Assembly (NCBI RefSeq): GCF_000280055.1
Contig: NZ_ALAB01000027.1
Location: 1 to 64,000, forward strand
Direction: 5' to 3'
Origin: Alishewanella aestuarii B11
GTDB lineage: Bacteria; Pseudomonadota; Gammaproteobacteria; Enterobacterales; Alteromonadaceae
Length of the DNA: 64,000 nt
The translations under genes were made by a program, and so were the position numbers. The number at the start of each line of letters is the position of its first letter. The stretch's first letter is position 1. Shown here piece by piece: positions 2,175 through 48,035 of this stretch. Below the pieces are notes generated by a model. It saw nothing but the letters and a program-made list of their open reading frames with translations, did not search any database and was not told where the DNA came from.

Positions 2175-2184
2175 GGTATGGGGC

Positions 2185-2315
2185 TTGGTTTGTCATTAGT
2201 AAAAAAGCTTGTGATGCTCAAAAAAGGCGAAGTTGAACTAATTGAACCACCTCTAGGCTTTTCTACTTGCTTTCAAGTAGAGTTGCCAATGCGTAAAGAA
2301 GAGAGTTTAACATGA
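2185..2315 (+). pseudogene. Histidine kinase, 3' fragment
   Basis: This is the last 43 or so codons of the kinase begun at the left edge: the end of the ATP-binding G2 box (LGLSLVKKLV) and the final strand (FSTCFQVELPM), then a TGA stop at 2313-2315. The stop overlaps the ATG of the next gene by four bases (ATGA), so kinase and receiver protein were translationally coupled before the insertion. The fragment has no start of its own. Confidence 0.8.
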
Positions 2316-2898
2316 AAGATACAATATTAATTATTGATGATACGCCTGACAAGAGAGACATGTTACTCTCTGTTCTGCAAAAAGAATTCTCAGGAGATGA
2401 AGTACAAATCATTACAGTAACGAAAGAGAATGTATCTGAGTTTCTTCCGCAAAGAGACAGAGAAGAAAACAAAGCTATACGTTCTGGTGCTCCTGAAGAC
2501 AGGTTATGTTTTTATTTCCAGTCAAACCCTCATATAAAACTAGTTATAGTAGATCATGATTTATCTTTATTAGATTCGCAGTTATCCGAATCAGTAGTCG
2601 CATCAGCGTGTCAAAATGCTGGAATACCTCATTGCAGATACTCTAGAACTACAGGTTATCAGACAGCTAGACAAAAACTGTTGGAGTTAGTCGAAAAGAG
2701 TCATGTCTACTCAATAAAAATAGATATTAATGATATAGAACATAGTGAGTTTGGCGAATCACCAGTATGTCTCTCTACTATTAGAAATATCTTTGAAGGC
2801 TTTAATCAGCTGAAAGAACTCATACAAGAAATGCATAAAGATTTGTTGGAAAAAGGCCCTGCAGCTATTTTAGCTACTATTCTTGGTTATCCTGGATT
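2312..2898 (+). pseudogene. Receiver-domain protein, 5' fragment (broken by ISAs1)
   Basis: The N-terminus looks like a response-regulator receiver domain: ILIIDDTPDKRDML carries the acidic pair and VIVDHDLSLLD (about residue 80) the likely phospho-acceptor aspartate. About 30 residues separate these two motifs beyond the usual spacing, so it is an atypical receiver. The ATG overlaps the kinase stop. The second ISAs1 copy interrupts the frame at 2898. Joining to 4153 restores one frame of about 385 residues. It is most likely the partner of the upstream kinase, with an unknown C-terminal output domain. Confidence 0.75.
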
Positions 2899-4142
2899 CA
2901 GGGTGAGATTACGAGTGGTCATTTAATAACCATACTCATTCCAGCTTCAAGCACCGCATCCAAATAAGCCTCATTCATCAATGCCTGACGCTGCTTTCTT
3001 CTGATACTCATTTTTCGCTTCTCAGCGCGTAACATATTCAAACCAAAGTGTCGCATCGTGGCAAGATTAGTCGCTGCATTACCACGATATATCTGGCAAG
3101 CATCCTCACCTAAGCTTACATCCAGCACCCAGTGTAACTGGTTTTCGATACTCCAATGCTCGCGAACTGCGCTGGCTAGCCGCTCGGCACTAAGAACGGC
3201 TGAGCTGATAAAATAACGCTGTTCTAATACGGCTCGCTTGTGCTTTTCCACCCGGTAAGTCGTTGCCATGCCAAGGGTTGTCAGCCCTGGCCACGCAGCT
3301 TTGAGTTTTTCCGGTAATTCACTGGCATCACATACCTGGAATTCACGGTACTCCAAGCGCCCACGGTTCTTTTCTAGTGACTGCGCGGCAGTATCTTTGT
3401 GCGCTTTACCCGCAAAGGCTTGTTTTACGGCATCATGCAGCTGTCCTTGGTTGCCTTTAACCGTCAACAGGTAGTCGGCTTCTTTATCTACTATCTGCTG
3501 CGCTATCTCTTTCTGGCATCCCATGGCATCCAAACTGACCAAGCATCCTTTAAGCTCCAGCAAGTTAAGTAGCTGAGGTATCGCCGTAATTTCGTTGCTC
3601 TTCTCGTCCGTTTTAACCTGGCCCATTACCACGCCATTGGCACTGGCAAAAGCGCTAACCATATGAATAGAAGAGCAGCGGTCTTCGCGGTTGTAAGAGC
3701 TGCGCAACGTTTTGCCGTCAATCGCTACCACCTGACCATCAGTAAGCTCTGTACAAGCCTGCATCCAACTGGCAAAGCAACGCTGTAAAGCTTCGCTGTC
3801 CAGCAATGACATCACCCGTGCGATAGTGTCGTGTACCGGCAAGCCCAGTTTGAAAAAACCATGTTCTTGCAACCAGTCAAAGCGGTTTTCACCGAAATCT
3901 TCAATATCTTCCCAGCCCTCACAGCCTGCGATAACGGCACACAGCGTTAAAAATACCACGTCAAACAAGGGGTAAACGACCTTAGATGCTTGCCTTGGGT
4001 CTTCTAATTCTGAAAAGTGCTCTGCAAAAATATCGATGTTCATAAACTGGCTCCGCGTAAAAGCCAGTATCTGATCACAACGGAAGATCGCGGTCAATCA
4101 GTTATGTTAAAGTGCGCGTTAAATGTTCGTGATCTTGCCCTG
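2899..4142 (-). mobile_element. ISAs1-family insertion sequence, copy 2 (1244 bp, inverted)
   Basis: It has the same length, the same ends and the same encoded protein as the copy at 931-2174, in the opposite orientation. It is flanked by the perfect 10-bp duplication ATCCTGGATT (2889-2898 and 4143-4152). That duplication differs from the one around copy 1, so the two copies inserted independently. It splits the receiver-domain gene. The two inverted copies bracket a 724-bp segment. Confidence 0.95.
2919..4043 (-). CDS. ISAs1-family transposase (copy 2)
   Basis: This 374-residue protein is identical to the transposase of copy 1, with the same ATG start (4043 on the minus strand) and the same VVAIDGKTLRSSY and HWVLDVS blocks. 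There are no internal stops or frameshifts, so it is probably functional. Long identical inverted copies 1.9 kb apart could also support inversion of the DNA between them. Confidence 0.95.
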   Translation of the reverse strand: MNIDIFAEHFSELEDPRQASKVVYPLFDVVFLTLCAVIAGCEGWEDIEDFGENRFDWLQEHGFFKLGLPVHDTIARVMSLLDSEALQRCFASWMQACTELTDGQVVAIDGKTLRSSYNREDRCSSIHMVSAFASANGVVMGQVKTDEKSNEITAIPQLLNLLELKGCLVSLDAMGCQKEIAQQIVDKEADYLLTVKGNQGQLHDAVKQAFAGKAHKDTAAQSLEKNRGRLEYREFQVCDASELPEKLKAAWPGLTTLGMATTYRVEKHKRAVLEQRYFISSAVLSAERLASAVREHWSIENQLHWVLDVSLGEDACQIYRGNAATNLATMRHFGLNMLRAEKRKMSIRRKQRQALMNEAYLDAVLEAGMSMVIK

Positions 4143-4152
4143 ATCCTGGATT

Positions 4153-4723
4153 AGAGCCAATGTTTCAGCAATATGCAACTTCTTATTCAGTTATGGCGGA
4201 AGTCCTCAAGATAAGAGAATTGACTGACAAGGAAGATCCTATTGAGTTTGAAAGAATCATTAGGAGTAGATTGTCTTATATAATTGGCTTTTGGTTATAC
4301 AATGTAATACTAAAATATCCTGGAATCATGCTCAATGAAACAGCTGCAGCTTCATATGTGAATATTGAAAATGATTGTTTCAAAGAAGTTGAAGATTTAT
4401 TCATAGCGGCTAAGTATTCAGGTCCCTTCTCAAATACTAATAATCATTCATATTGGTGGAGATATAAACTAGATGACATTCTGATAGATAATGACTGTGA
4501 GGATGGTATTGAATACGCCAGACAACAGGGCAAGGAAGGTATTAAGCCGAGTATTTGCTGCGTGTCTAGAGAGTCTCCAGCAGGATTTTACTGTCTGTTT
4601 AGGAAGTCTCCAATTTCTTTAGAGCATTCCGTCGGTGGTTTGAGTTGGATGCCGAATGGAGCGGATCTGAGCAGAGTGAGTATTGATTTGTACGATGAAG
4701 TCGCTCCATTCTTAGGCTTCTAA
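4153..4723 (+). pseudogene. Receiver-domain protein, 3' fragment (possible output domain)
   Basis: This is the C-terminal part of the gene begun at 2312. It is in frame with it once the insertion and one 10-bp duplication are removed (the TTA codon at 4151-4153 bridges the join). An internal ATG at 4160 could start a separate 187-residue protein, but no ribosome-binding site is evident before it. The sequence is mostly helical-looking, with IGFWLYNVILKYP and a later SYWWRYKLDD segment. I do not recognise a family. It probably carries the output function of the two-component pair. Confidence 0.65.
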
Positions 4724-4740
4724 TTAAGTAGGATACTTAA

Positions 4741-5466
4741 ATGTCGTCGGTCAGAGTTTTCGAAGCAAATTTTAATCACTTTAAGAATTCGCTTAGTTCT
4801 ACAATTGCAAAATTAGATAGTAAAGCTGTCGTTAGAATGCCTACAAAATGGATTATTGATGAACAGCTTAGTGATGATTCAAACAAATTAATTCGCCCAT
4901 CGGAACCATTTTCTTTGACTTCAATATCTCAAAAGGGAAATGCCGGCAGCAAAAGAATTTGCGCTTACCTTGATGGATATATTAGAATATCTGGTAAAGA
5001 TGAAAGAAAAATTAAAATAGATCGTTACTGCACTGAAGTGCTGTATTGCTATCCAGTAAGTTCTGTTGATTATAAGAACTTAAAAGTTTCTAGTGGATTT
5101 CATTTTGATTTTGATGTTGATGTACAACCTGCACATCCTATATTTCACATGCAACATGACAACACTGTACTAAATGAGAAGGTGATAGAAAGAGTAACAT
5201 CTTTGACTCCACAACTCGGAGAGAATAGGTTGTTTCGAGTTCCTACTTCACAAATGGATATTTTGTCAGCATTAGTTATGATCGTAGCAGACCATTTTGT
5301 AGACAAGTCTTCAAAAAAAGAATGTGATACATTTCACAAAATGCTCGATTTAATTGAGAAATACATGGTCATTGCGGATTTTTCTTTATGTAATCAGAAT
5401 CTGAGAAAAACCATGAACTCGGACAACACCCTATACTCTATTAACTGGTACTCATGCCCTCAATAA
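4741..5466 (+). CDS. Hypothetical protein, third gene of cargo operon
   Basis: This intact 241-residue soluble protein of unknown function starts 17 bp after the receiver gene, so it belongs to the same operon. The sequence begins MSSVRVFEANFNHFKNSLSS and contains a central acidic run (FHFDFDVDVQPAHPIFHMQHD) with several histidines; it has no membrane segment or signal peptide. Its AT-rich composition matches the kinase and receiver genes and differs from the chromosomal backbone, consistent with transfer as cargo. It ends 7 bp inside the convergent tniQ gene. It could be the effector or a partner of the two-component pair; no function can be assigned from sequence alone. Confidence 0.75.
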   Translation: MSSVRVFEANFNHFKNSLSSTIAKLDSKAVVRMPTKWIIDEQLSDDSNKLIRPSEPFSLTSISQKGNAGSKRICAYLDGYIRISGKDERKIKIDRYCTEVLYCYPVSSVDYKNLKVSSGFHFDFDVDVQPAHPIFHMQHDNTVLNEKVIERVTSLTPQLGENRLFRVPTSQMDILSALVMIVADHFVDKSSKKECDTFHKMLDLIEKYMVIADFSLCNQNLRKTMNSDNTLYSINWYSCPQ

Positions 5467-6488
5467 TGAGAAACATTTCGTCGTTTTATATTTACAGGGA
5501 TTGAAAGTATATTAGCTAGAGCTTTAATTTCATAAATCGTCAAATCTCTATAAATCTGATTGAAAGGTAACTTTCGTTTCATTATTACGGTGCGAAGCTT
5601 GCGCTCTGCATTAACATCACTGATCCAAGCTGAGAGTCCAAGCACATAATGACGCTCAGAAATATCCCGTTGCTCAAAAGCTTTCCGACTCTTAGTAAGT
5701 TCTAGCACCGGTTGTTTCACTACACTGCAGATATGGCTCTGCAAATCAGGCGCAAGGTTTACACTGACTATTAACCGGCACATCTGATGCCATAGAATGA
5801 GCCGTGCTTTGTTAAACGGGCCGCTATCTCTAAACTGACGGTCTACGATTTTCAGCAGAGCTTCCCATTGGGTGAATGGCCGTTTGTGCCATTTATCGAC
5901 CGGCACTTTTGGTGCATCGCTAAGCAGTGAATTGCAATTCCAGCAGTGGTTCATATTGCCGGCATCAAGCAGGTTAGCTTTGCCCAATTCAACCCGATGA
6001 AACGCAACCGGCTGCTGACACTGGTGGCAACGGTCATGCAGCATAATTTGATGTTTCGGGCAAAACGTATAAAATGCCAATCGCCACCCTAAGCGAAAGT
6101 ATGGGATAGCATCCTCCGCCAGACACTGCGGGCAATACTGAATACCAAAGTTACGGTAAGTTCTGTGATACATGTTTAATGGTAACCACCAGCGTAGCTG
6201 ACCGCTGGGGTTCTTGGTTTGAAACAACCGCCCCTCAAACAGCAATGCCGTCATCTTTTTAACCTGCTCGAGCGGCGTACCAGTGCGTTCACTCATCGTT
6301 TGCAGTAACCAGTCTGGGGCAAACCGATCAACATCACGATTCCATAACTGCCTTTGATGGCCAAAGTTACGCACGGCAAAGGTTTGGGCTTTCATACCGT
6401 TGGCATGAGCACAACGAATAAACCAGGAAGATAATGCCTCACCAGGCAAAGGTCGGGGATGAGCTGGCCACAAAGTCCCCGATAACAT
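5460..6488 (-). CDS. tniQ: TniQ/TnsD-family target-selection protein
   Basis: This 342-residue protein would direct the Tn7-like transposase to its target. The N-terminus (WPAHPRPLPGEALSSWFIRCAHANG) is the typical TniQ start. Zinc-binding pairs follow: YCPQC with FCPKH and CHQC in the first half, then HCWNC. It is shorter than Tn7 TnsD (about 500 residues), so it lacks most of the C-terminal DNA-reading region of TnsD-type proteins. It begins 3 bp after tnsC and ends overlapping a convergent cargo gene by 7 bp. The target site it reads is not known. Confidence 0.88.
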   Translation of the reverse strand: MLSGTLWPAHPRPLPGEALSSWFIRCAHANGMKAQTFAVRNFGHQRQLWNRDVDRFAPDWLLQTMSERTGTPLEQVKKMTALLFEGRLFQTKNPSGQLRWWLPLNMYHRTYRNFGIQYCPQCLAEDAIPYFRLGWRLAFYTFCPKHQIMLHDRCHQCQQPVAFHRVELGKANLLDAGNMNHCWNCNSLLSDAPKVPVDKWHKRPFTQWEALLKIVDRQFRDSGPFNKARLILWHQMCRLIVSVNLAPDLQSHICSVVKQPVLELTKSRKAFEQRDISERHYVLGLSAWISDVNAERKLRTVIMKRKLPFNQIYRDLTIYEIKALANILSIPVNIKRRNVSHY

Positions 6489-7388: not shown

Positions 7389-9262
7389 AGTTCGTCCAAC
7401 TCATCAAACGGCAAAAATTCCGCATCTTCGTCTTGCGGAACTGCCGGCAGCAAAGGTGCCTCAGTCTTTGCAGGCCGGCTTTGCTCTATTACGCTGTGCG
7501 ACAGCTGATGCGTTTTACGCCGCTGATTCATGCGCCGAACCGCCTTACTGGTCTTTACTGCTGCGGTTTCAATTTCACGCATACGATCATAGGCATCAAA
7601 AATGGCCTGCTCATCTATTTCTTTTACACCGGCTTCTTTGGCGCGTTTACGCGCTTCACGCAGCTCCCAAATGCTAATAGGCGGGTGCGACAGATTACGA
7701 TATGGGATGGCATAATAAGTTGCCAGCTCGGGATCGTAGAACCAAATTTGACTTAAGTCGCGCGGGTCGCGTCGGAACATAAACTTGCGCTTACGTTTGG
7801 AGTCATTTGGATCAGGTGCATTAATCCACACCCGCAACACGTCTGAATAATAGTGAATTTTGTCAATTTGTACGCCATAATCCAGCACGGCCCGTAGTTC
7901 AAATGGCATGAGATCCAGGCGAAGTTTAAACTCGTCGGCAATTTTTGCCGGCAAGCCTGAACCTGGTACTTTATCCGAACCCAAAATACCACGCTGCCAA
8001 GCCTGAGCTGGTGACATACCAAGGCTGCTATGTATTTTCTGGTGGTATACATCGACAATGTAAATCGTTAGCCACTGCTCGAACTCGGATAAAGTTAACG
8101 CAGCTTTGCCTTCTGAGTCATATTCGCCCTTTTCTCGCGGATTAGAAAAAGTGGTACCAGGTAGTGTATGAATCTCTTGCGCGAAAGAGCCTAGTGCACG
8201 CTCTACATGAGCACCGAAATTTGGCCGGCCTACCGGACGCCACTCAAGATCAATACCATACTCGTCACAACCGCGTTGCATCATATTGCCACGGAACTCT
8301 TTGGCGTTATCAAGATGCACTTTGGCTGGCAGCCCCCACACTAACCATTGGTTTTGCGTTGGGTACCTGGTCAGCCATTTATCTTTCGTTAGAATTGCAT
8401 GGGTTAAACACAAGCCGGTCGATAACGCGCTCGGCGGATCAAATGAAACATAAAATCCCGTTACGACTCTGGTACAGACATCAAATGCCAAAGTAATCCA
8501 AGGCCTGCCAATAGGTTGCCGATAATGATCATCAACCAAGATGATATCGAGTTTGGTGTGGTCAATTTGTACTACGGCCAGTGGGTAATCGGCACCTGGG
8601 AAACTGCCCTCATGCGGCTTGTAACTTAAGTCAGCAGTTTTACGGCCAAGGCGGCGGGCGGCAACCAATTCTCCCTGCAATTGCTTAATGCGATTTCGAA
8701 CACTGTTGCCATGTGGTACCGGCAGGTTCTGCCTTAAACAATGCTTTCTGACTTCATCGCATACTTTCTGCTGGCTCTTTTTCTGCTTCGTCAGGTATTC
8801 GCTGTCAATCACCTCACGGATAATCTTCTCAACCTCAGGGGTGAGCCTAACCGCACCCTTATCACTGCGGGTTTTAGGTAGTAGAGATGAGCGTAGTCCA
8901 CTTTGCTCATAGGCCCTGAGCCAACCATACACCGTATTGGTATGCACCGAGTGCGCTGCTGCCTGAGTTGCGACATCTCCCCGCGTACGGTCGGGCTTAT
9001 CTAAAAGCGGTTTAATAATGTCATAGCGCTTTTGCGCAACCGCCCAGGCTGCTTCGCCAATTGCTTGCAGATCGGTGTGGGTCTGCTCGTTGCTTTGCTC
9101 AGCAGGTTGCAGCTCATCAACCTTGGTGACCATGACCGCTTGATTAGCATCATCCAGCAGCTCTACGTTTTCTAATGAAGTCACACGCCGAATGCGGTGT
9201 ACCTTGCCCTGGAAAGATACCAACTTGCCTGGCTTTAGCTCTACCAACGCCACTTTAGCCAT
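7385..9262 (-). CDS. tnsB: TnsB-like DDE transposase
   Basis: This 625-residue Mu/Tn7-type transposase binds the element ends and carries out strand transfer. The N-terminal half has helix-turn-helix regions (AAHSVHTNTVYGWLRAYE). The RNase H-fold catalytic core holds D in VVQIDHTKLD, D in VHLDNAKEF and E in HVERALGSF, giving a complete DDE triad. A Mu-type C-terminal beta-barrel follows. ATG 9262 is preferred because a GGAG motif stands 8 bp upstream; it overlaps the tnsA stop by 8 bp. It is intact. Confidence 0.93.
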   Translation of the reverse strand: MAKVALVELKPGKLVSFQGKVHRIRRVTSLENVELLDDANQAVMVTKVDELQPAEQSNEQTHTDLQAIGEAAWAVAQKRYDIIKPLLDKPDRTRGDVATQAAAHSVHTNTVYGWLRAYEQSGLRSSLLPKTRSDKGAVRLTPEVEKIIREVIDSEYLTKQKKSQQKVCDEVRKHCLRQNLPVPHGNSVRNRIKQLQGELVAARRLGRKTADLSYKPHEGSFPGADYPLAVVQIDHTKLDIILVDDHYRQPIGRPWITLAFDVCTRVVTGFYVSFDPPSALSTGLCLTHAILTKDKWLTRYPTQNQWLVWGLPAKVHLDNAKEFRGNMMQRGCDEYGIDLEWRPVGRPNFGAHVERALGSFAQEIHTLPGTTFSNPREKGEYDSEGKAALTLSEFEQWLTIYIVDVYHQKIHSSLGMSPAQAWQRGILGSDKVPGSGLPAKIADEFKLRLDLMPFELRAVLDYGVQIDKIHYYSDVLRVWINAPDPNDSKRKRKFMFRRDPRDLSQIWFYDPELATYYAIPYRNLSHPPISIWELREARKRAKEAGVKEIDEQAIFDAYDRMREIETAAVKTSKAVRRMNQRRKTHQLSHSVIEQSRPAKTEAPLLPAVPQDEDAEFLPFDELDEL

Positions 9263-36595: not shown

Positions 36596-39145
36596 TCTAT
36601 AAATTGCTCGTTCGGTAGTGACGGTGATGTGATACGTGACCTGATTGACGAGATATTTCTAAGCTGCCTGTTCGGCAGTGAAGCGTGATCATCTGCCGGC
36701 TTTGCAGCTCAGCCATTTCTAAGCTGCCTGTTCGGCAGTGAAGATCAGGGTGTTAGTCGTCGGGTACGTCGTGCTTTTCTAAGCTGCCTGTTCGGCAGTG
36801 AAGTGCAGTAGCTCTTAATGAAATAGATTGTCCAGGTTTCTAAGCTGCCTGTTCGGCAGTGAAGGCGCTGGATCCAAGTTCGGTTTAGTTCAGCATTTTC
36901 TAAGCTGCCTGTTCGGCAGTGAAGTTATCTTGTGCCACTTGTTCGGCTGTGGTGTTTTTCTAAGCTGCCTGTTCGGCAGTGAAGCTGCAATGAGTGCGGG
37001 CGCGGTTGCCGCGAGATTTCTAAGCTGCCTGTTCGGCAGTGAAGAGCATGGCCATAAAGGTGCCAATGGTGCCATTTTTCTAAGCTGCCTGTTCGGCAGT
37101 GAAGGGAACCAAAGCCACGGGCTGATCCTGCCAAACTTTCTAAGCTGCCTGTTCGGCAGTGAAGGCCTGCTCGACTCCGGACTCGCCATCCGAGCATTTC
37201 TAAGCTGCCTGTTCGGCAGTGAAGATCCAAAGATCCATCCCCATGCAGTTTGATCCTTTCTAAGCTGCCTGTTCGGCAGTGAAGGCAGCCGACCACTGTT
37301 TCGGGGGTTTGCTAGTTTTCTAAGCTGCCTGTTCGGCAGTGAAGGGGTAGGCAATGCAACGGCCTGGCCCGACATATTTCTAAGCTGCCTGTTCGGCAGT
37401 GAAGGGTAAAACAGCGGCGGCTGTACGCTCTAAACTTTTCTAAGCTGCCTGTTCGGCAGTGAAGAACGTCACAAAGGACGGAAGGCTGGCTGCTGATTTC
37501 TAAGCTGCCTGTTCGGCAGTGAAGACTAAAAAGGCCATTAGGCATATGGTTAGCTTTTTCTAAGCTGCCTGTTCGGCAGTGAAGAGGCTAAAAGACATAG
37601 CAGAAGCCATGTTGCATTTCTAAGCTGCCTGTTCGGCAGTGAAGTGGGAGCAGGTGCTTTCTGTTGACGCCAATATTTTCTAAGCTGCCTGTTCGGCAGT
37701 GAAGGATGCAGAAGCGAGAATTAACAACGCCGTACATTTCTAAGCTGCCTGTTCGGCAGTGAAGGTTACGTGGTTACGTGATGATGGCGTCTATGATTTC
37801 TAAGCTGCCTGTTCGGCAGTGAAGCAGGTTAGCGCCGCACAGGTTAGCGTCGCACATTTCTAAGCTGCCTGTTCGGCAGTGAAGCTGCTGAATTTTTCGC
37901 TTAGCTGCGCGGAATTTTTCTAAGCTGCCTGTTCGGCAGTGAAGACGCTGTGCTGCAAACTTCAGGCGCAATTCGATTTCTAAGCTGCCTGTTCGGCAGT
38001 GAAGATGCGCAGCTCCTTACCGCGATCCTCAGTGCATTTCTAAGCTGCCTGTTCGGCAGTGAAGAAAGCGAACTGAAACGCCTCAACCACTGCAAATTTC
38101 TAAGCTGCCTGTTCGGCAGTGAAGTTAGCCCTGGCTGGTTACGCTGTCGAGGTAATTTTCTAAGCTGCCTGTTCGGCAGTGAAGAAAAAGCCTAGATTTG
38201 TGGGGCGTCCGGGAGGTTTCTAAGCTGCCTGTTCGGCAGTGAAGTTGGCGCTGGCCGGTTACGCTGTTGAAGTTATTTTCTAAGCTGCCTGTTCGGCAGT
38301 GAAGAAGATACTTTTGTTGGTCGTGTTACCATTCAATTTCTAAGCTGCCTGTTCGGCAGTGAAGTGTATATACAAGAAGAAGTCTCTTCCGTGCGCTTTC
38401 TAAGCTGCCTGTTCGGCAGTGAAGATTACAAGCACAAAAGCCGCCTTTTGCAGCTTTTTCTAAGCTGCCTGTTCGGCAGTGAAGACATTCAGGTTCGGGT
38501 TCTGCTGGTTCAGCAGTTTCTAAGCTGCCTGTTCGGCAGTGAAGGTAATCGGTTGGTACCAGGTATATGGTTTCGTTTTCTAAGCTGCCTGTTCGGCAGT
38601 GAAGTGTCGGCCGGTGAATATCTGATCCCGCTGCGTTTTCTAAGCTGCCTGTTCGGCAGTGAAGACGGCGAACCACAGGTAAAGCGTGACCCAAGTGTTT
38701 CTAAGCTGCCTGTTCGGCAGTGAAGCCTATAACAAGTACCGCGAAATTTTACGTGGCTTTCTAAGCTGCCTGTTCGGCAGTGAAGAGGAGTCTGAACCAT
38801 CTTACGTTACCGTTGCATTTCTAAGCTGCCTGTTCGGCAGTGAAGTTGTCATTCATCGCGCTACTTGAGCGCAGTCATTTCTAAGCTGCCTGTTCGGCAG
38901 TGAAGGATGTGCTTTTGAAGGTTGGCATCGGTGTTGCTTTCTAAGCTGCCTGTTCGGCAGTGAAGGCAGAGCAGCGGATTTTGGAGCTGGAGGCGCATTT
39001 CTAAGCTGCCTGTTCGGCAGTGAAGGTTATCAAGGGAGACTTAAACCTTGATGATCATTTCTAAGCTGCCTGTTCGGCAGTGAAGGTAACGGTTGCGGCT
39101 GCAACGGGTTTCTGGCATTTCTAAGCTGCCTGTTCGGCAGTGAAG
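36596..39145 (-). CRISPR. Type I-F CRISPR array, 43 repeats (last degenerate), 42 spacers
   Basis: The 28-bp repeat on the plus strand begins TTTCTAAGCTG and ends GGCAGTGAAG; on the minus strand it has the type I-F form, with CTGCC/GGCAG around a 5-base loop and a 3' CTTAGAAA handle. I count 42 identical repeats, the first starting at 36656 and the last at 39118. Spacers are 32 bp, except two of 33 bp (before 36837 and before 38698). A degenerate repeat at 36596-36623 (about 20 of 28 matches) marks the distal end. The handle orientation and this decay place transcription on the minus strand, with the leader at the right beside cas6f. Confidence 0.98.
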
Positions 39146-39274: not shown

Positions 39275-39844
39275 TTAAAACCAAGGAACTGTTATTTTTT
39301 CAGATAATCGACTTAACCCGTATGAGTTAAAACTACCTACTATTGCATGCTCAACTACCGGTCCCTGTTCTATAAACACTTTCATTTGCTGCTTATTACC
39401 TCGGCTGATTAATTGCAAAAATGGCAGCTTCAAAAGTTTTTGCGACTCGTCACTGATCTTATCCAATGCCTCCTCCTGTGTTAACCAGCCTTTGCTGACT
39501 GAACGCTGACGCTTATTGTGTGCACTTTTTACTTGCCGTCTGGCAAAGTAACGCTGCTTGGCATTAGCAGGGACTGGCTGTATCGCACTGCATTGGCAGT
39601 AATCTCTGAGCCCTTTTAGCCAATTTTCAGCCATCAGCTTTTCCAACATGCTTGCCGTGCCATGAATACGCAACTGAGAACCAAGATGCCTACCAGTTTG
39701 AGCATAACCGGGGAAACTAACGCCTACTTTACCCATAGTCACCTGCCCTAACACCGCGTGAAGTTTTGAGCACAGGTTGTTCATTAGAAAATTGGCGTCA
39801 GCTTCTAAGTCGGGTAATACCGTTATTTCGATATAACTATCCAT
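39275..39844 (-). CDS. cas6f: CRISPR endoribonuclease Cas6f (Csy4)
   Basis: This 189-residue enzyme cuts the array transcript at the base of each repeat hairpin and stays bound to the crRNA 3' stem. The catalytic-type histidine lies in SKLHAVLGQ, followed by GVSFPGYAQTGRHLG as in Csy4. An arginine-rich segment (RYFARRQVKSAHNKRQRSVSKG, about residues 108-129) fits the helix that reads the hairpin groove. Last gene of the cas operon, next to the array. Confidence 0.95.
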   Translation of the reverse strand: MDSYIEITVLPDLEADANFLMNNLCSKLHAVLGQVTMGKVGVSFPGYAQTGRHLGSQLRIHGTASMLEKLMAENWLKGLRDYCQCSAIQPVPANAKQRYFARRQVKSAHNKRQRSVSKGWLTQEEALDKISDESQKLLKLPFLQLISRGNKQQMKVFIEQGPVVEHAIVGSFNSYGLSRLSEKITVPWF

Positions 39845-39855
39845 AGTCAGCTCCC

Positions 39856-40860
39856 TTAACCGGCTTCACCAAACACACCACCACGAATAAACATGGCCAT
39901 AATGTAATGCTGCTGCTCCAATGGCGGGGTTTTACCTTTTAATACCCAGCCATCCAGTAATTTATAAAAATCCATATTGTCTTTTGGCTGGCGATACGCT
40001 TTACCACGGTTAGTTACTGAGCCGTAAGGTTCTACGGCAATAGCACCAACCTCTGCGGTTTCCGGGTGCCAGGTGTCAATAGTGCGCAAAGCATTGCCTA
40101 TTTTTTGCGAGTGCATGGCAGCCACACCATCCAACTGGTATAAGAACTTGCTTTTGTCACCTTTGCCGCCGCCCATTACCAGCTCTTGTGATGGATAAAC
40201 TGCCTGACCTGCGCCCAGTTTTACAAAGGCACTTACTTTAAGCAGCGCAAAGCTTTCTCCTGCCAGCCCCTGTTTTATCACTTGCGCTAGTTTTGCTAAA
40301 TCGCCTTTTGGCTCTGCAAAACTGCGCAAGTCAAACTGTTGGGCATCAAATATCCAGAGCTCTTTACCATGCGTTACCTGCACTTCTACTGCTTCAGCGC
40401 CTACCCGGTTGCGCCACAAAAAACGACCATTGGCAATGTTGGCGGCATAACGATTGGCTAACTCGGTAAATTGGGTTTGTTCAGCATAGCCATTAATAAG
40501 GTTGGCCAATGCCTGTTGGTATGCAGGATCATTACAGGTAGAAGGTGTCGCTAAATTGCCGATGATTCTTAAGGTAAAACTCACTTTAAGCGTATCGTGC
40601 TCAAACGGCAGTGCGGCATTATCAACGGTTTGTAGGTTAGCTTTTTGCACTTCAGCATCAACCTTTGCCGGATCGCTGGCCAAAGCCGACTTTAACCGGT
40701 TTGAAATAGTGCCACGTACCGCTTTTTCTTTAACCGCTACAGGCAAAAAGCTGTTGCCATTTGCGCGTTCTTCCCAGTTGCCACTGGCCATAATGGCGTC
40801 TGAATTTGCCAGTTTGGCTTCAAAAGCCAGTACCGATGCTGTTTTTAAAGTAGTAGTCAT
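39856..40860 (-). CDS. csy3: Cascade backbone protein Cas7f (Csy3)
   Basis: This 334-residue protein forms the helical filament that holds the crRNA spacer, with several copies per complex. The family start [26 protein letters not shown] and the middle [20 protein letters not shown] are recognisable, as is the C-terminal [14 protein letters not shown]. In the Csy complex, Cas7f subunits flip out every sixth crRNA base, which matters for the mini-CRISPR described below. Confidence 0.95.
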
Positions 40861-40874
40861 AAGTAAGTTCCTTA

Positions 40875-41864
40875 TTAGAAGTAAGTAAGTTCAGTTTCTG
40901 TCAGTTCAACTAAAGCGGCTTCCTGCTCCGGATGCAGCTTTAATGTGTTCTGTGCCGTGTTTGTTGTACATAAATACCAGGGGCCCTGCTGACGATAACG
41001 CCAGATAACATCACGTAAATCAGGCACTCGGTGCGGGCTTAACCACTGGCCAACGCCATACGCAGATTCAACAAAACAAAACGGATATTGCGGATCACGG
41101 CTATTGGCGACAGCGCCAGCAGGATAAAGCGCTGAAATTGCTTTATAGCCGGTGGTGATCGGCACCAGGTAGCCTTTGTCCGGTTTAGGTACCCGTACCC
41201 ATTCAACAGCATGTTGCTCTGTTGGTGAGTCAGCATCCTCAGTTGTAACAGCCTGATAAGTTAACGCTGCAAAATCCAGCCAGGCATCTAGCATAGTGGC
41301 ATTGGGCTGAGTCGAGATTAACTGCTGATAATGCTGCTTTAATAGCTCTGAGCGATCCGTTAACACGAAACCCGGCAGCACTTTTCGCAGCAATTTACGG
41401 CTTAACGCCTGCTCATCATCATCGCTGTACAGGCTAACGCCTTTAAGGCAACTAACCTGGCCACCAGCTAGCTTTTGCCGTTGCGCTAGCACAGTAAGTG
41501 TTTCAACTAACTGCTGTTGCTGAGCGCCACTAAATGCTTTGCTAGATTCCAGAATCAATGAAACGGTAAGGTGCATTCGTCCTTCTTCAACGATAGGCGC
41601 AGTATTGCCCTCTTTGGTTAATGGGTTGCGGGTAAGCGCAAAAACGTAATCGCCCCAACCGCCAGGCTGATAGGCCTGTACCTGATGCTGATGGCATACC
41701 ACTGCACAGCCGGTTAGTTCAATACCAAACTGTTGTTGTAACTTACGCGACAGTGCGTGGGTATAGCCAAGGAAATGGGTAATGGCCGGAAAGCCATAAG
41801 TAAAACCGGCGATACAATTGGCATTTTGGACTTTGATATGCTCCAGCAAAATATAATTGCTCAT
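40875..41864 (-). CDS. csy2: Cascade subunit Cas5f (Csy2)
   Basis: This 329-residue RAMP-fold protein binds the crRNA 5' handle together with Csy1. Family features are the N-terminal [35 protein letters not shown] and the [14 protein letters not shown] segment. The start codon overlaps the csy1 stop by 4 bp (ATGA). Complete length. Confidence 0.94.
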
Positions 41865-43231
41865 ACTGCAGCCTCCGCTTGTGCCTTAGCTGCAGAAAAC
41901 ACCATTGTGCCAAGCTCGTAATCGCGTAGCCGGGGCGACAACAACTTCGCCCAATGCTGATATTGCACAGTACCAAACACTAACCCATCATTCTTCAGGG
42001 CTTTGTTCAGCTTACTATTTAACCAACCGGCAAAGGCCAGACAAATATCTTGCTGCCAATTGTTGTTTGCCCTTTTTTGCTGGAACAACAGATCCTCACA
42101 CCAGACATCCAACCACAGTTGTTCCGCCAGTTTTAACTCACAATTTTGGAAACTCCAACCAGCGTACTCGCTTAATCCCTGCACTTCAGCTGCATAATTT
42201 AGTAAGCCATCAATAAGATCATTTACGTAAGCGGCGATATTACGACGAATTTCTAAAGTACTATCGCGCCCTTTTACGCTAAGTAAGTAACGTTGTAGTT
42301 CTTGTAAATCGCGCCATACCCTGCGGTTAAATTCGCGACTGTTAAATATCGATTGCTCATTTAATGGTGGCTTTAACGTCGATTGCCAGGATGGCGGCGC
42401 ACAGTTGAGCAAATTGGTTTTACCGCCCCGCTGACTATTCAACTGCGAAATATTTTGTGGTTTAGAGCCACCAAAGCTTTGTATTGCAGTATCTAAAAAT
42501 CGAATGTCTGGCTTGTCATGATATTTACCAGCCCGGCGCGCTTCCCGAATAGCTTTGGGTTCATCACCATAGCGCACGGCAGTTATTTTGCTGTTAAATT
42601 GATGCGCAAGAGACGAGGCAAATACGGGGCTAAGCAAGTGATACTGGCCATCAGCGATGGGGAAATACAGTTGTTTGGCTAAGGTATGAGATGACAAGGC
42701 TTTATCTGCCAGAGCCAACTTGAAACCTTCAACCCATTCAGTGAGTTGCATCTGATCTTCGCTAAAAACTGCAAGAGCGCTGAAATCGCCATCTGTTAGG
42801 GTCTGTGCAAGACTCCGCCCTTCAAATTCTAATTGTAGTAGCTTGGCAACATCTAATGCTGCTGCGTTACCAACGGCATCAATGGCCAAGTTGGCTAAAC
42901 TGGCCGTGACGAGATAGTCGGCATCCTCCATATATTCGAGTGACAACACGCTGCTGCCTTTGGCATCGCCATGAGTAAACTTCAACGCATGAGTAACAAG
43001 ACTGATTTGTTTTGCACGCTTTGCCGCATCATCTAACCAATGCCTCACATCAAACTGTTGGTTGATTTGTAGGATCTGAGGCGAAAACTCAGTGTTGATC
43101 TGCGCTTGTTTAACAGCATCGTCAACACCTTTTAGCGCTTTCTCCAATGCTTTTTCTATTGGCTCCAGCTTCTGCAACCTGCGTTGGTCGATATAATCAG
43201 CTATTACTGCTGCTAGCCCTTTGGTTTGCAT
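41861..43231 (-). CDS. csy1: Cascade large subunit Cas8f (Csy1)
   Basis: This 456-residue protein recognises the CC PAM and helps recruit the Cas2-3 nuclease. Typical Csy1 segments are FTHGDAKGSSVLSLEY, the KYHDKPDIRFLDTAIQSFGGSKPQNISQLNSQRGG block and NSREFNRRVWRDL. It is the first core gene of the csy operon, with only one small gene between it and the operon promoter. Confidence 0.94.
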   Translation of the reverse strand: MQTKGLAAVIADYIDQRRLQKLEPIEKALEKALKGVDDAVKQAQINTEFSPQILQINQQFDVRHWLDDAAKRAKQISLVTHALKFTHGDAKGSSVLSLEYMEDADYLVTASLANLAIDAVGNAAALDVAKLLQLEFEGRSLAQTLTDGDFSALAVFSEDQMQLTEWVEGFKLALADKALSSHTLAKQLYFPIADGQYHLLSPVFASSLAHQFNSKITAVRYGDEPKAIREARRAGKYHDKPDIRFLDTAIQSFGGSKPQNISQLNSQRGGKTNLLNCAPPSWQSTLKPPLNEQSIFNSREFNRRVWRDLQELQRYLLSVKGRDSTLEIRRNIAAYVNDLIDGLLNYAAEVQGLSEYAGWSFQNCELKLAEQLWLDVWCEDLLFQQKRANNNWQQDICLAFAGWLNSKLNKALKNDGLVFGTVQYQHWAKLLSPRLRDYELGTMVFSAAKAQAEAAV

Positions 43232-43266
43232 AAATCCTCCTGAAATTAAAAGCTTTTTGCATACAA

Positions 43267-43527
43267 TTAACTAATCGTATATTCCCGCCAAGGTATCTGA
43301 TTTGGATGTATATTCGTTAGAAACTTCACGATATCGCGCCTACCAGAATAGGTTGGTATTCCCTTGCTATTTTGGGCCATCAGCACTATCGGCATATTCG
43401 GAAAATAGGCCGTTGAAAACTCAGTGAACTCTTCGCTTAGTTGGCTTGAAGCCACTATGTGTGGTTTTACAACAAGGACTGCAAACGTTACACCTTGCTC
43501 TCTTACAACAGCACCATGAATCTTCAT
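43267..43527 (-). CDS. Small conserved-looking protein, first gene of the csy operon
   Basis: This 86-residue soluble protein (MKIHGAVVREQGVTFAVLVVKPHIV...) has no recognised function. It lies between cas2-3 and csy1, 35 bp ahead of csy1 and on the same strand, with a good ribosome-binding site (TGAGG) upstream. The C-terminal half (GIPTYSGRRDIVKFLTNIHPNQIPWREYTIS) is charged and compact. It has no helix-turn-helix. It could be a recent insertion or an accessory or regulatory part of the locus. Confidence 0.7.
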   Translation of the reverse strand: MKIHGAVVREQGVTFAVLVVKPHIVASSQLSEEFTEFSTAYFPNMPIVLMAQNSKGIPTYSGRRDIVKFLTNIHPNQIPWREYTIS

Positions 43528-43558
43528 ACATTTACCTCAGATAACGAAACCTGAATTG

Positions 43559-43587
43559 ACTATAATTCAACCAACAACCAAGATCAA
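43559..43587 (-). promoter_or_regulatory. Probable csy operon promoter
   Basis: On the minus strand, TTGATC (43582-43587) and TATAGT (43559-43564) are separated by 17 bp, a good sigma-70 arrangement. Transcription would begin about 25 bp before the small gene's ATG. An alternative promoter further upstream has TTAAGT (43618-43623), an 18-bp spacer and TATACT (43594-43599). Confidence 0.6.
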
Positions 43588-43589
43588 CA

Positions 43590-43605
43590 CCTAAGTATAT
43601 TTATT
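43590..43605 (+). promoter_or_regulatory. Putative Csy-complex target site with CC PAM
   Basis: CC (43590-43591) is followed by TAAGTATATTTATT (43592-43605). This matches the mini-CRISPR spacer TAAGTATATTTGTT at 13 of 14 positions; the mismatch is position 12. It lies 3 bp beyond the -35 box of the closer csy promoter and covers the -10 box of the alternative promoter, so a bound complex would block transcription. Confidence 0.65.
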
Positions 43606-43657
43606 GTAAATATTCAAACTTAACATTAGACGCAACTAACGACTTACTCTAAAATCG

Positions 43658-43728
43658 CCCCACTACCGCAGTTGGTAGCTCAGAAATAAGTATATTTGTT
43701 GTTAACTACCGCACAGGTAGCAGCGCAC
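43658..43728 (+). ncRNA. CRISPR-like two-repeat mini-array, putative CreR-type regulatory crRNA
   Basis: Two diverged type I-F repeats lie in crRNA orientation on the plus strand. The first (43658-43686) has the stem CTACC/GGTAG and ends with the handle CTCAGAAA. The second (43701-43728) has GTTAA then CTACC-GCACA-GGTAG. Compared with the array repeat (CTGCC/GGCAG), both stems carry the same paired change, so folding for Cas6f is kept. Between them is a 14-nt spacer, TAAGTATATTTGTT, instead of 32 nt. The expected product is about 42 nt (8-nt handle, 14-nt spacer, 20-nt stem). Its match upstream of the csy operon suggests autorepression rather than immunity. A promoter for it is not evident. 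Confidence 0.7.
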
Positions 43729-46700
43729 TCAGCCGAGTGCGCCATACACTCCCAATACAGGGTGGTACTGCCACTTTTCGGCATTCTGTTTTACTCTTAA
43801 ACGGATCTCACCGAATTGTTTGCTTACCTCTTCCAGCGTGAGCCCCATTTGTTCTGCACGCTGTTGATACACTGACAGCGCATCCAGCGTAAACCAGGCA
43901 TGGTTGCCCTGCGTTGGCTGCCAGCTTTCAGTAACAAAATTTTCTGCTTTGATATATTCCAGTGGCCAGACTGCATCATTAATCCGCGTAAATACCGGCT
44001 CGTCATCTTCTTCTGATAACATCAGGCAGTAAGGTTCATCAGGCGATGACTTGCGAAACGGCTTACGCCTTTGTAATTCAGCACTCCAAGTTGCATGATG
44101 ATCCCACCATCTTGCGGCATAATCTGTTGGCCAGTCACCGCTACCGGATGACCATTTTTCTGGTTGAGGAAATACACTTTGAAATAGCGCCAAATGCTCA
44201 AATACAACAAGGTCAGAGTACAGTTTCGATTCAACTAGTTTTGGCTGACTGATACGTGGTAATGCACTGATATGCTGAAAATACTCGACCGGCAAGATCT
44301 GTTGAAGATCATGATGTTTTAATAATAAATCATCCCGCTCAAACCCCGGCTGACAATAGGCAGGTTTGCGCTTTCCATCCCTATTTGTTACCGCTTTTAA
44401 TGCTTTAAAATTTTGCGACAGAATTAACAAGTTATCGCTACTTGCTGGTTGCTGGCGGTGCCGTTGAATACGCCCGGCCAACTGGATCAGTGAGCGCATA
44501 GAACTGGGCTCGGCAATTGCCCAGTCATAATCATGATCCCTGCCGACTTCAGCGACAGAGGTCGCTAATACCACAAATAGATGATTGCCTTGTGGATATT
44601 GCGCGAGTGCGTGGCTGATTTCAGCTTGCTGCCAAAGCGCTGACGTATTGTAGCGGGTCAGTGCTGCATCCAACTTTTGCTCGATAGCAGAGCGCACCGC
44701 TAATGGGTACTGGCTGTGGTAAACACAATAATGAATATGGCAATCGACAGGTACTGCCATTTGTAGCAACTGCTTAGCCACAGCGACCATAGGATTAATA
44801 TTGGCCATACGTACCAAGCCGATGGATACTTTTTGACCTGTAGGTGCCACTTGATGATGCTGACTATGTAACTGACAAATACTCTGCTGGATTAGGCTAG
44901 CCAGTTGGCTAATAATCAGCTCTGGATTTTTACTGCTGGCGGTTACCCCCAGTAAACTGGCTTTACGCAGCACAGGCTGAGTTGCCAGGGCCTTAACCCG
45001 TTTTTCAACAAATAGCGTGTGCTGCTGCATTAACTGCTTTTTATCTGCACACTCTGCTTTTACTGCGGTAAATTCATCAAACCAAGCGCAGATAACCGGC
45101 AATTGTGACCGACCGTCAGCATTCACTGCATTGAAGTTCTCTCTGCCGGTGCGGTAGGCCTCAAACAAAGCGCACACCAGAACTGGCGGTAAAGTGGCAG
45201 ATGAAAACAGTAATCTGGCGCCCAACATGCCAGCCCAGTTCACCAGCCTGCACAGCGCGGGTAAATCGGCAGTGTCGAAATCATCGGGTTCATCCAGCAC
45301 CAAATCAGCCGTTAGCAACCTCAGCATAGGCGCGATTTGCTTACCGCCACGCACACCTTCGGTTGCTGGCATCAAATGATCAATAGTGCTTACCAGTACC
45401 GGTGCACTCACCAGTTGGTTTAGCTTCGGGCTACTGTTTAGCCAGTCTTTTAAGCGGCCATCATACAAGCTGCCTTCATAACTTACGTAAAGGTGCTCTG
45501 CGATAGGATCGACCAGCGACTCACTGCCAGTAGCGCTACTACTGACAGCAAGCTCAGCTTGTAAAGCTTGCTTACTGATATCATGCAATTGTTGCACTGC
45601 TGCGGAGCCAATTAACACCGCCAAGTCATCATCAGTCAGTTGCAAACGCTGTTTTAATGCATCACCTGTTTGTAACGTTAGCGTTCTTAACCCCAGTGCC
45701 ACACTAAAACGGCATCCCAGCTTTTCGTCAGCTAAACCGTACATAATACGGGCATTGGCAAAAGTTTTACCTTTGCCGGTGCTCGCCATATTGATACCAA
45801 AGAAGCCTTGAGAAACACTGTTTTCCCGTACCGAACAAGCCAAATCATAGGCCTTATCCTGCCAGCGGAACTTATCCAGCTTGGCCCGTTGCTTAAAACC
45901 TTTGTGCCGGGTAATGGCTGGCAAGGTATTTTTTAACGTCGGTAAACTTCTGGCCAATAAATAGGCATTATGGCTTACACCAATATTATGCTCATCTAGC
46001 TTTTGCTTAAGCTCACCATTTTCACGGTAAGAATTGGCAAAGGCTTTGTAGCTTGCATCTTGCCATTTTGTTTTAGGCTCTTGCGCCGAATAATAATGGT
46101 CGGCCAACATCAGTACCATCCGTGCATTATGACTAGTAAAGCGCTGCTCAAACCAATCTTGCTCAAATAACCTACTACAATTTAGCGCTCTAGCTGCAAT
46201 TTCTCCGGCTTTTTGCCGCCAGGTTGCACTGAGCAAAGGCGAACCATATACAAAAAACCAGTTTTGCTCACGTCGTTGTTGCTCACAACTCTCAGCACTG
46301 TTTACGGAATTCCATAACACATCAAAATTGTTCAGCCAGCTGTTTATGTTTTCAAACACAGGTTTGGTATCAGATTTTTTATCCGGAAAAATAGGCAATC
46401 TATGGTGAGATACGATTAGCCAAGCGACTAACCTAGCTACTGGTGCTAAACCGGCAAATGGCTCCAGATGACCCTGTTCCGGCGCATCTTTATGTAGCTT
46501 TGCTAAAACACTGTGTTCAAACTGAGCCGTAATATTGGCTAATTCAGTAAGCCATTGCTTATCTGATTTACCGGCAGTAAATGCCTGAAATAGCCGTAGC
46601 GATACCCATTCATGGCGATAAGGTTCATAACCCGGCGTTTTTACTTTGGGATTTATTTTTTGCTGAAACAGCAGATTGGCTTTACCAAAATCATGAAACA

Positions 46701-47061
46701 AACCGGCAATACCAGCCAATAAAGCGATAACCTCGGCGTTGTGCCAGCTGTTTTCATCCTCACTACGCAGAATATTGCGCAATGTCATGTTGGTTGGTGT
46801 GGCACCATCAACGTTGAATTTACGCTGATTACCCACTACCCATAACAACTCAGTATGATTTTTACTGCGGATCCAATGACAGGCCACAGCGGTATTTCGC
46901 CGTGCCGACTTTTTCAACAGCTTGCGCAGCACATCAAGCCCTTGCAAAGTGATTGGCGTTTGCCAGGTTCTGTCACCACGGCGTTCAGCGAACTGATCTA
47001 TGATCCGTCGTGTTTCAATAAGAGCATTTTTCGAGCACTGCGATACCAGCATAATGTTCAT
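43729..47061 (-). CDS. cas3f: Cas2-Cas3 fusion helicase-nuclease
   Basis: This 1110-residue type I-F effector nuclease combines an N-terminal Cas2 domain (MNIMLVSQCSKNALIETRRII, about residues 1-90), an HD nuclease domain (GLFHDFGKANLLFQQK) and a superfamily 2 helicase (Walker A in NMASTGKGKTFANARI, DExx-type LVLDEPDDFD, and IQLAGRIQRHRQQP). It degrades target DNA recruited by the Csy complex, and its Cas2 part joins Cas1 in adaptation. The start overlaps the cas1 stop by 4 bp. The stop codon (43729-43731) lies within an 8-bp hairpin at 43723-43742. Confidence 0.96.
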   Translation of the reverse strand: MNIMLVSQCSKNALIETRRIIDQFAERRGDRTWQTPITLQGLDVLRKLLKKSARRNTAVACHWIRSKNHTELLWVVGNQRKFNVDGATPTNMTLRNILRSEDENSWHNAEVIALLAGIAGLFHDFGKANLLFQQKINPKVKTPGYEPYRHEWVSLRLFQAFTAGKSDKQWLTELANITAQFEHSVLAKLHKDAPEQGHLEPFAGLAPVARLVAWLIVSHHRLPIFPDKKSDTKPVFENINSWLNNFDVLWNSVNSAESCEQQRREQNWFFVYGSPLLSATWRQKAGEIAARALNCSRLFEQDWFEQRFTSHNARMVLMLADHYYSAQEPKTKWQDASYKAFANSYRENGELKQKLDEHNIGVSHNAYLLARSLPTLKNTLPAITRHKGFKQRAKLDKFRWQDKAYDLACSVRENSVSQGFFGINMASTGKGKTFANARIMYGLADEKLGCRFSVALGLRTLTLQTGDALKQRLQLTDDDLAVLIGSAAVQQLHDISKQALQAELAVSSSATGSESLVDPIAEHLYVSYEGSLYDGRLKDWLNSSPKLNQLVSAPVLVSTIDHLMPATEGVRGGKQIAPMLRLLTADLVLDEPDDFDTADLPALCRLVNWAGMLGARLLFSSATLPPVLVCALFEAYRTGRENFNAVNADGRSQLPVICAWFDEFTAVKAECADKKQLMQQHTLFVEKRVKALATQPVLRKASLLGVTASSKNPELIISQLASLIQQSICQLHSQHHQVAPTGQKVSIGLVRMANINPMVAVAKQLLQMAVPVDCHIHYCVYHSQYPLAVRSAIEQKLDAALTRYNTSALWQQAEISHALAQYPQGNHLFVVLATSVAEVGRDHDYDWAIAEPSSMRSLIQLAGRIQRHRQQPASSDNLLILSQNFKALKAVTNRDGKRKPAYCQPGFERDDLLLKHHDLQQILPVEYFQHISALPRISQPKLVESKLYSDLVVFEHLALFQSVFPQPEKWSSGSGDWPTDYAARWWDHHATWSAELQRRKPFRKSSPDEPYCLMLSEEDDEPVFTRINDAVWPLEYIKAENFVTESWQPTQGNHAWFTLDALSVYQQRAEQMGLTLEEVSKQFGEIRLRVKQNAEKWQYHPVLGVYGALG

Positions 47062-48035
47062 AGTTCGCCACCATGCAGTGCAGCGATATCTTTCAGGCTA
47101 TCGATGATGAAATCCAGCGCTTCAGCTTGCTGAAAATTGGTAATACAGTTTTGCCGGAACTCCTGGTCGTCATCGCCATTCATCGCACTGATAAAAGCTT
47201 GTGGGAGCACCAATGCATCTTTAATGAGATCTGCCGCATCAAATACCAAACCACCACGGCGGGTTTTTCCATGAAGTACTGAAAAGCCATGCGGTAAACC
47301 TAAAACCCAGGTTGCTGTTGCTCCCAAGCCATAGGCTAAATAGTTACCGTGATCTAAAAAGCGATTAGCTGGATCAATACCGCTTCCGCCTTTGGCGCGC
47401 GTAAAGCTGTCGTCATGCGCTAAGGTATTGCAGGCAATTTTATACAGTAACTTGGTCAAGCGGGCTTCCGCCAACATAAGTGGCTGGGTGCCATTTGCAG
47501 CATCTACATCTTGTTTAAAGCGTGACAATGCTGAATCTAATTGGCTTTCACTGACCACAAAGCCATTATCAATAAATGATTTATTTTTTAGCCAGTGCTT
47601 CAACGTGAAATCAATTCTAAACTGCTGAATCGCTTTAGCTGCCTGCAACCTTTTGTCGTCATCCGGCCAAAACTTCAACCATTGCTGCAAATATTCGCAG
47701 GGCCGGTACTCACTTTGCGGATTAAACCAAGCTACCTCAACTTCAACATCATTTACGCTGAACAATGGCGTGCCACCACCACCACAGAATCCAACTAAAA
47801 CCCCTGCCCGCGCTAACTCCCGCATTGCAGCCTGAGTCACTGAAGTTCCGGTTCCCAGTAATAAACAAGTCGTATTGGCAATGGGGATATTCCAATACAG
47901 CGACTGTTTACCCTCATCAGTTACGTATTCAACACGACCACCTTTAACTAGCACGCGACAATGCTGCAGGTAATACATATTTGCCCGCTTGGAATGCAGA
48001 ATGCTTTTTAGATCTGATGGTGAAAAGTCATCCAT
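47058..48035 (-). CDS. cas1: CRISPR integrase Cas1
   Basis: This 325-residue spacer integrase is of the type I-F (Cas1f) group. Recognisable parts are CRVLVKGGRVEYVTDEG, TTCLLLGTGTSVTQAAMRELARAGVLVGFCGGGG, LTKLLYKIACNTLAHD and the metal-site region AYGLGATATWVLGLPHGFSVLHGKTRRGGLVFDAADLIKDALVLP. AGGAGAG stands 6 bp before the ATG. First gene of the cas1-cas2-3 transcript, so the adaptation module is complete. Confidence 0.96.
   Translation of the reverse strand: MDDFSPSDLKSILHSKRANMYYLQHCRVLVKGGRVEYVTDEGKQSLYWNIPIANTTCLLLGTGTSVTQAAMRELARAGVLVGFCGGGGTPLFSVNDVEVEVAWFNPQSEYRPCEYLQQWLKFWPDDDKRLQAAKAIQQFRIDFTLKHWLKNKSFIDNGFVVSESQLDSALSRFKQDVDAANGTQPLMLAEARLTKLLYKIACNTLAHDDSFTRAKGGSGIDPANRFLDHGNYLAYGLGATATWVLGLPHGFSVLHGKTRRGGLVFDAADLIKDALVLPQAFISAMNGDDDQEFRQNCITNFQQAEALDFIIDSLKDIAALHGGEL

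Follow-up and report, generated by a model that had tools for sequence, protein, structure and literature searches.

The gap between cas2-3 and the csy operon of Alishewanella aestuarii B11 holds a mini-CRISPR that, judging from the sequence, probably guides the Csy complex to a promoter candidate of orf86 and csy and represses that promoter. The guide, its target, the PAM, the position of the target, orf86 and the covariation of guide and target across loci are all observed directly. In the window (the whole stretch of 64,000 nucleotides analysed, from contig NZ_ALAB01000027.1), profiles and annotation place cas1 (47058-48035), cas2-3 (43729-47061), csy1 (cas8f, 41861-43231), csy2 (cas5f, 40875-41864), csy3 (cas7f, 39856-40860) and csy4 (cas6f, 39275-39844) on the minus strand, which together with I-F repeats make up a complete type I-F1 CRISPR-Cas locus. 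Its long CRISPR array lies at about 36.6-39.2 kb and has the repeat stems CTGCC/GGCAG, and the gap between cas2-3 and csy1 measures 497 bp. Within the array, two spacers 120 bp apart (38125-38276) are near-copies, as if from two related protospacers, their 90-nt repeat-spacer-repeat units being 93% identical, and the repeat at the low-coordinate end (36596-36624) is a clearly degenerate copy (TCTATAAATTGCTCGTTCGGTAGTGACGG), the other copies shown being uniform.

The mini-array is on the plus strand and consists of two degenerate I-F repeats, recognized by sequence and fold, around a short spacer. Repeat 1 (43658-43686) has the stem CTACC (43663-43667), a 6-nt loop, GGTAG (43674-43678) and the handle CTCAGAAA (43679-43686), and repeat 2 (43701-43728) the same CTACC/GGTAG stem with the 5-nt loop GCACA. 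Both match Rfam CRISPR-DR4 on the plus strand (43661-43686 and 43701-43722; 17.3 bits each, E 0.97 and 0.98), far below the gathering score of 35 and weak in themselves. The 14-nt guide between them, TAAGTATATTTGTT (43687-43700, plus strand), matches at 13 of 14 positions a plus-strand protospacer at 43592-43605 (TAAGTATATTTATT) that is preceded by a CC PAM at 43590-43591, the sole mismatch being position 12. A sequence-only reading of this DNA had described the two diverged repeats with their paired stem changes, the 14-nt spacer and the PAM-flanked match, and on all these points it was borne out. The CC-flanked pattern CCTAAGTATATTTNTT, in which position 12 was left free and up to one further mismatch was allowed, occurs a single time in the whole genome, at 43590-43605. 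Not one of 3000 dinucleotide shuffles of 43232-43657 gave a CC-flanked window with up to one mismatch on either strand, and windows with up to two mismatches averaged 0.0007 per shuffle; together with the cross-locus controls given below, the shuffles ruled out a chance origin of the match. From the 8-nt 5' and 20-nt 3' handles reported around the guide of the I-F CreA (PMC10097628), the mature guide RNA is predicted to be 42 nt long (43679-43720, plus strand), with an 8-nt handle, the 14-nt guide and a 20-nt 3' part that includes a hairpin. A 14-nt guide is as long as the 32-nt standard shortened by 18 nt, and truncated I-F1 complexes with spacers 6, 12 and 18 nt shorter are reported to bind their target without triggering Cas2/3 (PMC7296934).

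The position of the target points to a promoter candidate that opposes the mini-array. By consensus match only, a sigma-70-like promoter candidate for the guide RNA (TAGACG, 17 nt, TAAAAT) lies at 43627-43655 on the plus strand, and a second one for orf86-csy (TTGATC at 43587-43582, 17 nt, TATAGT at 43564-43559) lies at 43559-43587 on the minus strand, its -35 box beginning 2 nt from the PAM. The scan found four promoter-like sites against 1.2 +/- 1.1 in shuffles, so any single promoter call counts as weak evidence. The sequence-only reading had let the target adjoin the csy promoter and cover a second possible -10 box; a promoter candidate does stand next to the PAM, but the first gene behind it is orf86 rather than csy1, and the scan called a single minus-strand promoter here and none whose -10 box falls in the target. 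The gene that this reading had missed, orf86 (43267-43527, minus strand), was identified as an open reading frame with homologues, encodes a conserved 86-aa protein of PHROG 23950, begins 62 nt behind the target and stands between the promoter candidate and csy1, so that the targeted promoter would drive orf86 before csy1. Since orf86 and csy1 are 35 nt apart and the scan called no other minus-strand promoter from one to the other, it can be inferred that orf86 and csy1-4 probably form one transcript. An 8-bp GC-rich hairpin behind repeat 2 (43723-43742, plus strand; fold -14.9 kcal/mol, z -5.55) may mark the end of the guide RNA; it has no T run and overlaps the 3' end of cas2-3. Two results in this region count against guided repression, namely that the scan called no intrinsic terminator for the guide RNA and that the predicted fold of the precursor pairs one degenerate repeat with the other.

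A type I-F1 regulatory mini-array was reportedly described by Shmakov et al. in 2023. Csy1 was found in 36 of 295 family-sample genomes and in 32 of 369 class-sample genomes, and 60 csy1 loci, 30 per sample, were surveyed. They comprise 58 distinct loci, and for some the upstream sequence is shorter than 1.5 kb. A mini-array upstream of and antisense to csy1 is present in 12 of the 58 distinct loci, 11 of which were found by a hairpin-pair detector (13 rows, including L108 and L110, duplicates of G000 and G001 that are left out of the counts); the twelfth, L027, has an imperfect stem that the detector missed and was added by eye. The detector found no mini-array in sense orientation at the 58 loci. 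The spacers of the 12 mini-arrays differ from one another, and for every one of them a CC-flanked match lies on the same strand at a distance of 66-185 bp, with 1-4 mismatches over the first 14 nt. Each target was initially taken to be the best match next to a CC on the strand that carries the spacer, a choice for which crossed pairs served as the control: among 10 non-redundant loci (L024 and L027, two of three related loci, were dropped for the permutation and the crossed pairs), own spacer-target pairs had 1-4 mismatches and the 90 crossed pairs at least 5 when the best CC-flanked match was taken from both strands of the 272 nt before each mini-array. Even when the PAM was disregarded, the top match was the CC-flanked one in 11 of the 12 loci (ties not excluded). 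Every sixth base is flipped out in type I complexes, so mismatches at positions 6 and 12 are to be expected, and in the 10 loci they occupy 15 of 20 cells at these positions and 6 of 120 elsewhere (Fisher 1.2e-11). Where cas3 and csy1 could both be placed (50 loci, which leaves out the mini-array loci L101, L106 and L125, whose gap is not measurable), mini-arrays occur in 9 of the 12 gaps of at least 150 bp and in none of the 38 smaller ones. By eye, nine of the 12 loci have a TTGA box that begins no more than 2 nt from the PAM. A strict pattern scan of 395 family genomes gave a match in nine, four of which are csy-gap mini-arrays; the other five have matches in unrelated loci, taken as chance. 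That scan missed the mini-arrays of L024 and L027, and the reversed control pattern had at least one match among the matches listed.

Several features of the survey weigh on the other side. No mini-array was found at 46 of the 58 loci, a number of which have under 1.5 kb of upstream sequence; guide lengths run from 14 to 29 nt, and the 14 nt of the window is the shortest; the match of L114 has 4 mismatches and is equalled by a non-CC site; and L032, L101 and L125 have no TTGA box at the PAM as judged by eye. We nevertheless regard Csy-guided repression as supported because 12 loci with differing spacers each keep a CC-flanked match, with mismatches mostly at positions 6 and 12. The earlier proposal that a crRNA-like guide sends Csy to a promoter upstream of csy is thus well supported by the covariation across 12 loci, by the placement of the target and by I-F biochemistry (PMC7296934).

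The closest relatives of the locus lack the whole block. The five loci with the most similar Csy1 (85-97% identical, L002-L006) have no 497-bp block, and cas2-3 ends about 15 nt before csy1, as measured for the three that reappear as L008-L010. The block therefore seems either to have been acquired as a module here or to have been lost there, and its presence or absence among relatives resembles that of the creTA gap among Acinetobacter strains (PMC10097628). With the block absent, these five offer no spacer-target match for comparison, and the suggestion that it would be conserved in relatives held in another form, since distant loci carry spacer-target pairs of their own. The 15-nt gap leaves no room for the targeted promoter, which thus seems to come and go together with orf86. 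An ATG-started small ORF (63, 74 or 86 aa) begins 58-66 nt behind the target in 3 of the 12 mini-array loci; besides orf86, these are ORFs of 74 aa in L028 and 63 aa in L032 that occupy the slot between target and csy1. Further ORFs listed in L101, L104 and L106 were judged doubtful and left uncounted. Of the 74- and 86-aa proteins, both searched, only the latter belongs to a broad family, whereas for the former the search gave just three matches, two of which carry the name Pseudoalteromonas.

A protein search with Orf86 returned 271 relatives, and most of the 120 matches listed share 50-65% identity with it along almost the entire length; the few that name a source include Anoxybacillus, Paenibacillus, Dorea and a Sedimentisphaerales bacterium. 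P0001 and P0002 are the nearest among the matches listed, at 91% and 85% identity to Orf86, and their longest contigs measure 5.4 and 4.6 kb. In an alignment of 37 relatives with the window protein, all 38 proteins match PHROG 23950, a family of unknown function. The window protein had no match in Pfam, NCBIfam or PADLOC, its AlphaFold2 model is a confident small alpha/beta fold (mean pLDDT 94.5), and structure comparison with that model gave no convincing relative. IMG/VR viral contigs contribute 31 loci with a relative, near-copies among them, and further relatives occur in 21 plasmid records, in 2 of the 31 genomes from the genus and in 6 of 369 class-sample genomes, the window's own being counted in both of the latter figures and three of the class-sample relatives being only 33-37% identical. 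Many of them stand without a close partner gene. Eight non-viral loci were selected for inspection (two class-sample genomes, one genus genome and five of the 21 plasmid records), and in seven of them annotation or profiles show neighbours of a defence type. Relatives in L052, L053 and L054 adjoin IetAS-like ATPase/S8 peptidase pairs, that of L045 is near a DrmD-like helicase, an AbiU-like protein and a WYL regulator, that of L044 is beside a WYL regulator, that of L056 beside MvaI/BcnI restriction (by annotation and Pfam, not PADLOC) and that of L089 near an I-F3 CAST, while the relative in the eighth locus, L055, lies between IS5-family transposase genes. The relatives of L052, L053 and L054 are on Rhizobium and Leptolyngbya plasmids. 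On the viral contigs, Pfam identifies ordinary phage genes (terminase, integrase, recombinases) among the neighbours, and PADLOC families are few, none recurring in more than 3 of the 84 neighbours scanned.

Further features were seen around these relatives. Another genome of the same genus (L089) has a type I-F3 CAST at 1430-6471 (tniQ, cas8/5f, cas7f, cas6f and a short array whose last repeat is atypical) and, about 1.3 kb from it at 7815-8156, an Orf86 relative 60-61% identical to the window protein. In L044 (4362-4610) and L045 (7461-7709), from genomes of different families, a second conserved ORF of 82 aa lies directly behind the Orf86 relative; a tblastn search of the other 40 loci gave no match to it, though the next ORF in L054 looks alike by eye.

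RNA-guided promoter repression is already known from CreR, CrePA and the I-F CreTA, and, in the literature searched, the protein cargo looks new to such switches. The sequence-only reading had placed guides of the CreR kind in other subtypes; CreR is indeed in print, for types I-B, I-E and V-A (PMC13131331), but so is an I-F guide, that of the CreTA in Acinetobacter WCHA45, LoGeW2-3 and ANC3789 (PMC10097628). As in CreR (PMC12737573), a mini-CRISPR near cas genes, with two degenerate repeats of the host subtype around a short spacer, has a guide of limited complementarity to a PAM-flanked site at a predicted promoter feeding cas genes, the promoter being called by consensus; unlike in CreR, the first gene of the operon is orf86 and not a cas gene, and the subtype is I-F. 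The likeness to the Acinetobacter CreTA extends to the location in the cas3-csy1 gap, the related strain AYE having no gap, to a creA divergent from the small gene whose predicted promoter it targets, to the two degenerate repeats and to the partial match to a CC-PAM site (PMC10097628). The WCHA45 CreA has a guide of 20 nt with mismatches at 6, 11 and 18, compared with 14 nt and a mismatch at 12 in the window, and what CreTA guards is a small toxic RNA containing a 33-bp mini-ORF (PMC10097628) rather than a conserved 86-aa protein gene leading into csy1. The toxin start site of CreTA is reported to lie upstream of the target (PMC10097628), whereas here the predicted -35 box is downstream of the target, a difference counted against our reading. 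In CrePA, a protein-coding gene is held down by a crRNA-like antitoxin together with the CRISPR effector, and CreP typically, although not universally, has a KilA-N domain (PMC12737573); here too a protein-coding gene lies behind the target of a crRNA-like guide, but Orf86, unlike CreP, has no Pfam match, and its lack of any Pfam, NCBIfam or PADLOC family gives no sign of a toxin of the KilA-N type. A literature search that covered few subscription papers returned no paper recognized as a description of Orf86 or of an I-F mini-array guarding an Orf86-family protein.

From these features we infer how the guide RNA may be transcribed and processed, how repression and release would follow and what part Orf86 may play. 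The divergent mini-CRISPR would be transcribed from the plus strand and cut by Csy4 (Cas6f) to render the 42-nt guide with its 14-nt spacer, which would then assemble with Csy1-3 into a shortened Csy complex. This complex would bind the CC-flanked site by the -35 box of the opposing promoter and block RNA polymerase, and the short R-loop should not trigger Cas2/3, leaving the chromosome uncut. The targeted promoter would transcribe orf86 and probably csy1-csy4, so that one switch may repress both the effector operon, as in the autorepression of CreR, and the mobile small protein gene ahead of it, a cargo comparable to those of CreTA and CrePA. Release of CreR by crRNA competition or by an Acr is described in a review (PMC12737573), and by analogy the switch would probably be released when Csy is titrated by crRNA or blocked by an anti-CRISPR; with free Csy scarce, orf86 and csy should rise together.

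Our confidence covers guided repression of the promoter and nothing beyond it, and the alternatives differ mostly over the purpose of the module. One of them, that the module serves csy autorepression as CreR does and that orf86 is a chance passenger, is quite possible, if somewhat short of an even chance. No ORF of at least 35 aa is listed between target and csy1 in 6 of the 12 mini-array loci, and three others (L101, L104 and L106) list only doubtful ones, from which repression of csy alone seems to be the common form. On the other hand, the close relatives leave no space for a csy promoter in their 15-nt gap, which ties the promoter to orf86, and the slot of orf86 holds a small ORF with an ATG start in L028 and L032 as well. 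Another explanation, in which the mini-array is left over from the decaying end of a former CRISPR array and the match is a functionless duplication, is highly improbable: the repeats are degenerate as such a relic would have them, but their stem changes are paired (CTGCC/GGCAG to CTACC/GGTAG), and the arrangement returns with differing spacers in 12 loci, with mismatches largely limited to positions 6 and 12. A relic origin of the match was rejected by the shuffles and the cross-locus controls.

If orf86 is more than a passenger, two roles can be considered for it. Orf86 may be an antiphage or counter-defence factor whose gene is freed along with csy once an anti-CRISPR inactivates the Csy complex, a backup defence that we consider possible but on the unlikely side. 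The defence-type neighbours at seven of the eight non-viral loci and the 31 viral-contig loci of the family favour this role, but neighbourhood is weak evidence, no PADLOC family exceeds three of the 84 viral-contig neighbours, Pfam neighbours include ordinary phage genes, PHROG 23950 has no known function and the fold search yielded no convincing relative. Alternatively, Orf86 would be toxic or dormancy-inducing, with the guide RNA as its antitoxin as in CrePA and CreTA, and loss or inhibition of Csy would kill or arrest the cell. For this we see the gap, the divergent arrangement, the CC PAM, the degenerate repeats and a gapless related strain, all as in the Acinetobacter I-F CreTA (PMC10097628), as well as the start of orf86 62 nt behind the target; we nonetheless judge it unlikely, as Orf86 matches no known toxin family in Pfam, NCBIfam or PADLOC, many relatives have no close partner gene, which is unusual for a lethal toxin, and a search with the I-F pattern within 800 bp of Orf86 relatives at 39 loci found no tandem stem-loop pair and a single stem-loop in 4.

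Guided repression of the orf86-csy promoter remains the reading we prefer, and it allows a more speculative extension, rather doubtful as it stands, in which Orf86, from a family of viral contigs and defence neighbourhoods, was recruited with its promoter and a 14-nt guide into the I-F cas operon. Csy would then constantly monitor whether it is intact itself, so that loss of free Csy to an anti-CRISPR or to crRNA overload would release a second-line antiphage effector along with new Csy from the one promoter and the module would act as a dual-output guard. Among the sampled I-F loci, about a fifth (12 of 58) have a guide that matches a site close by, upstream of csy1, and the preference of the mismatches for positions 6 and 12 is a simple signature by which more such guides could be found. 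Through its family, the so far anonymous Orf86 becomes a testable candidate for a CRISPR-guarded effector. If the dual-output guard is true, a CRISPR guard would stand over a widespread protein family, a link that is new to us.
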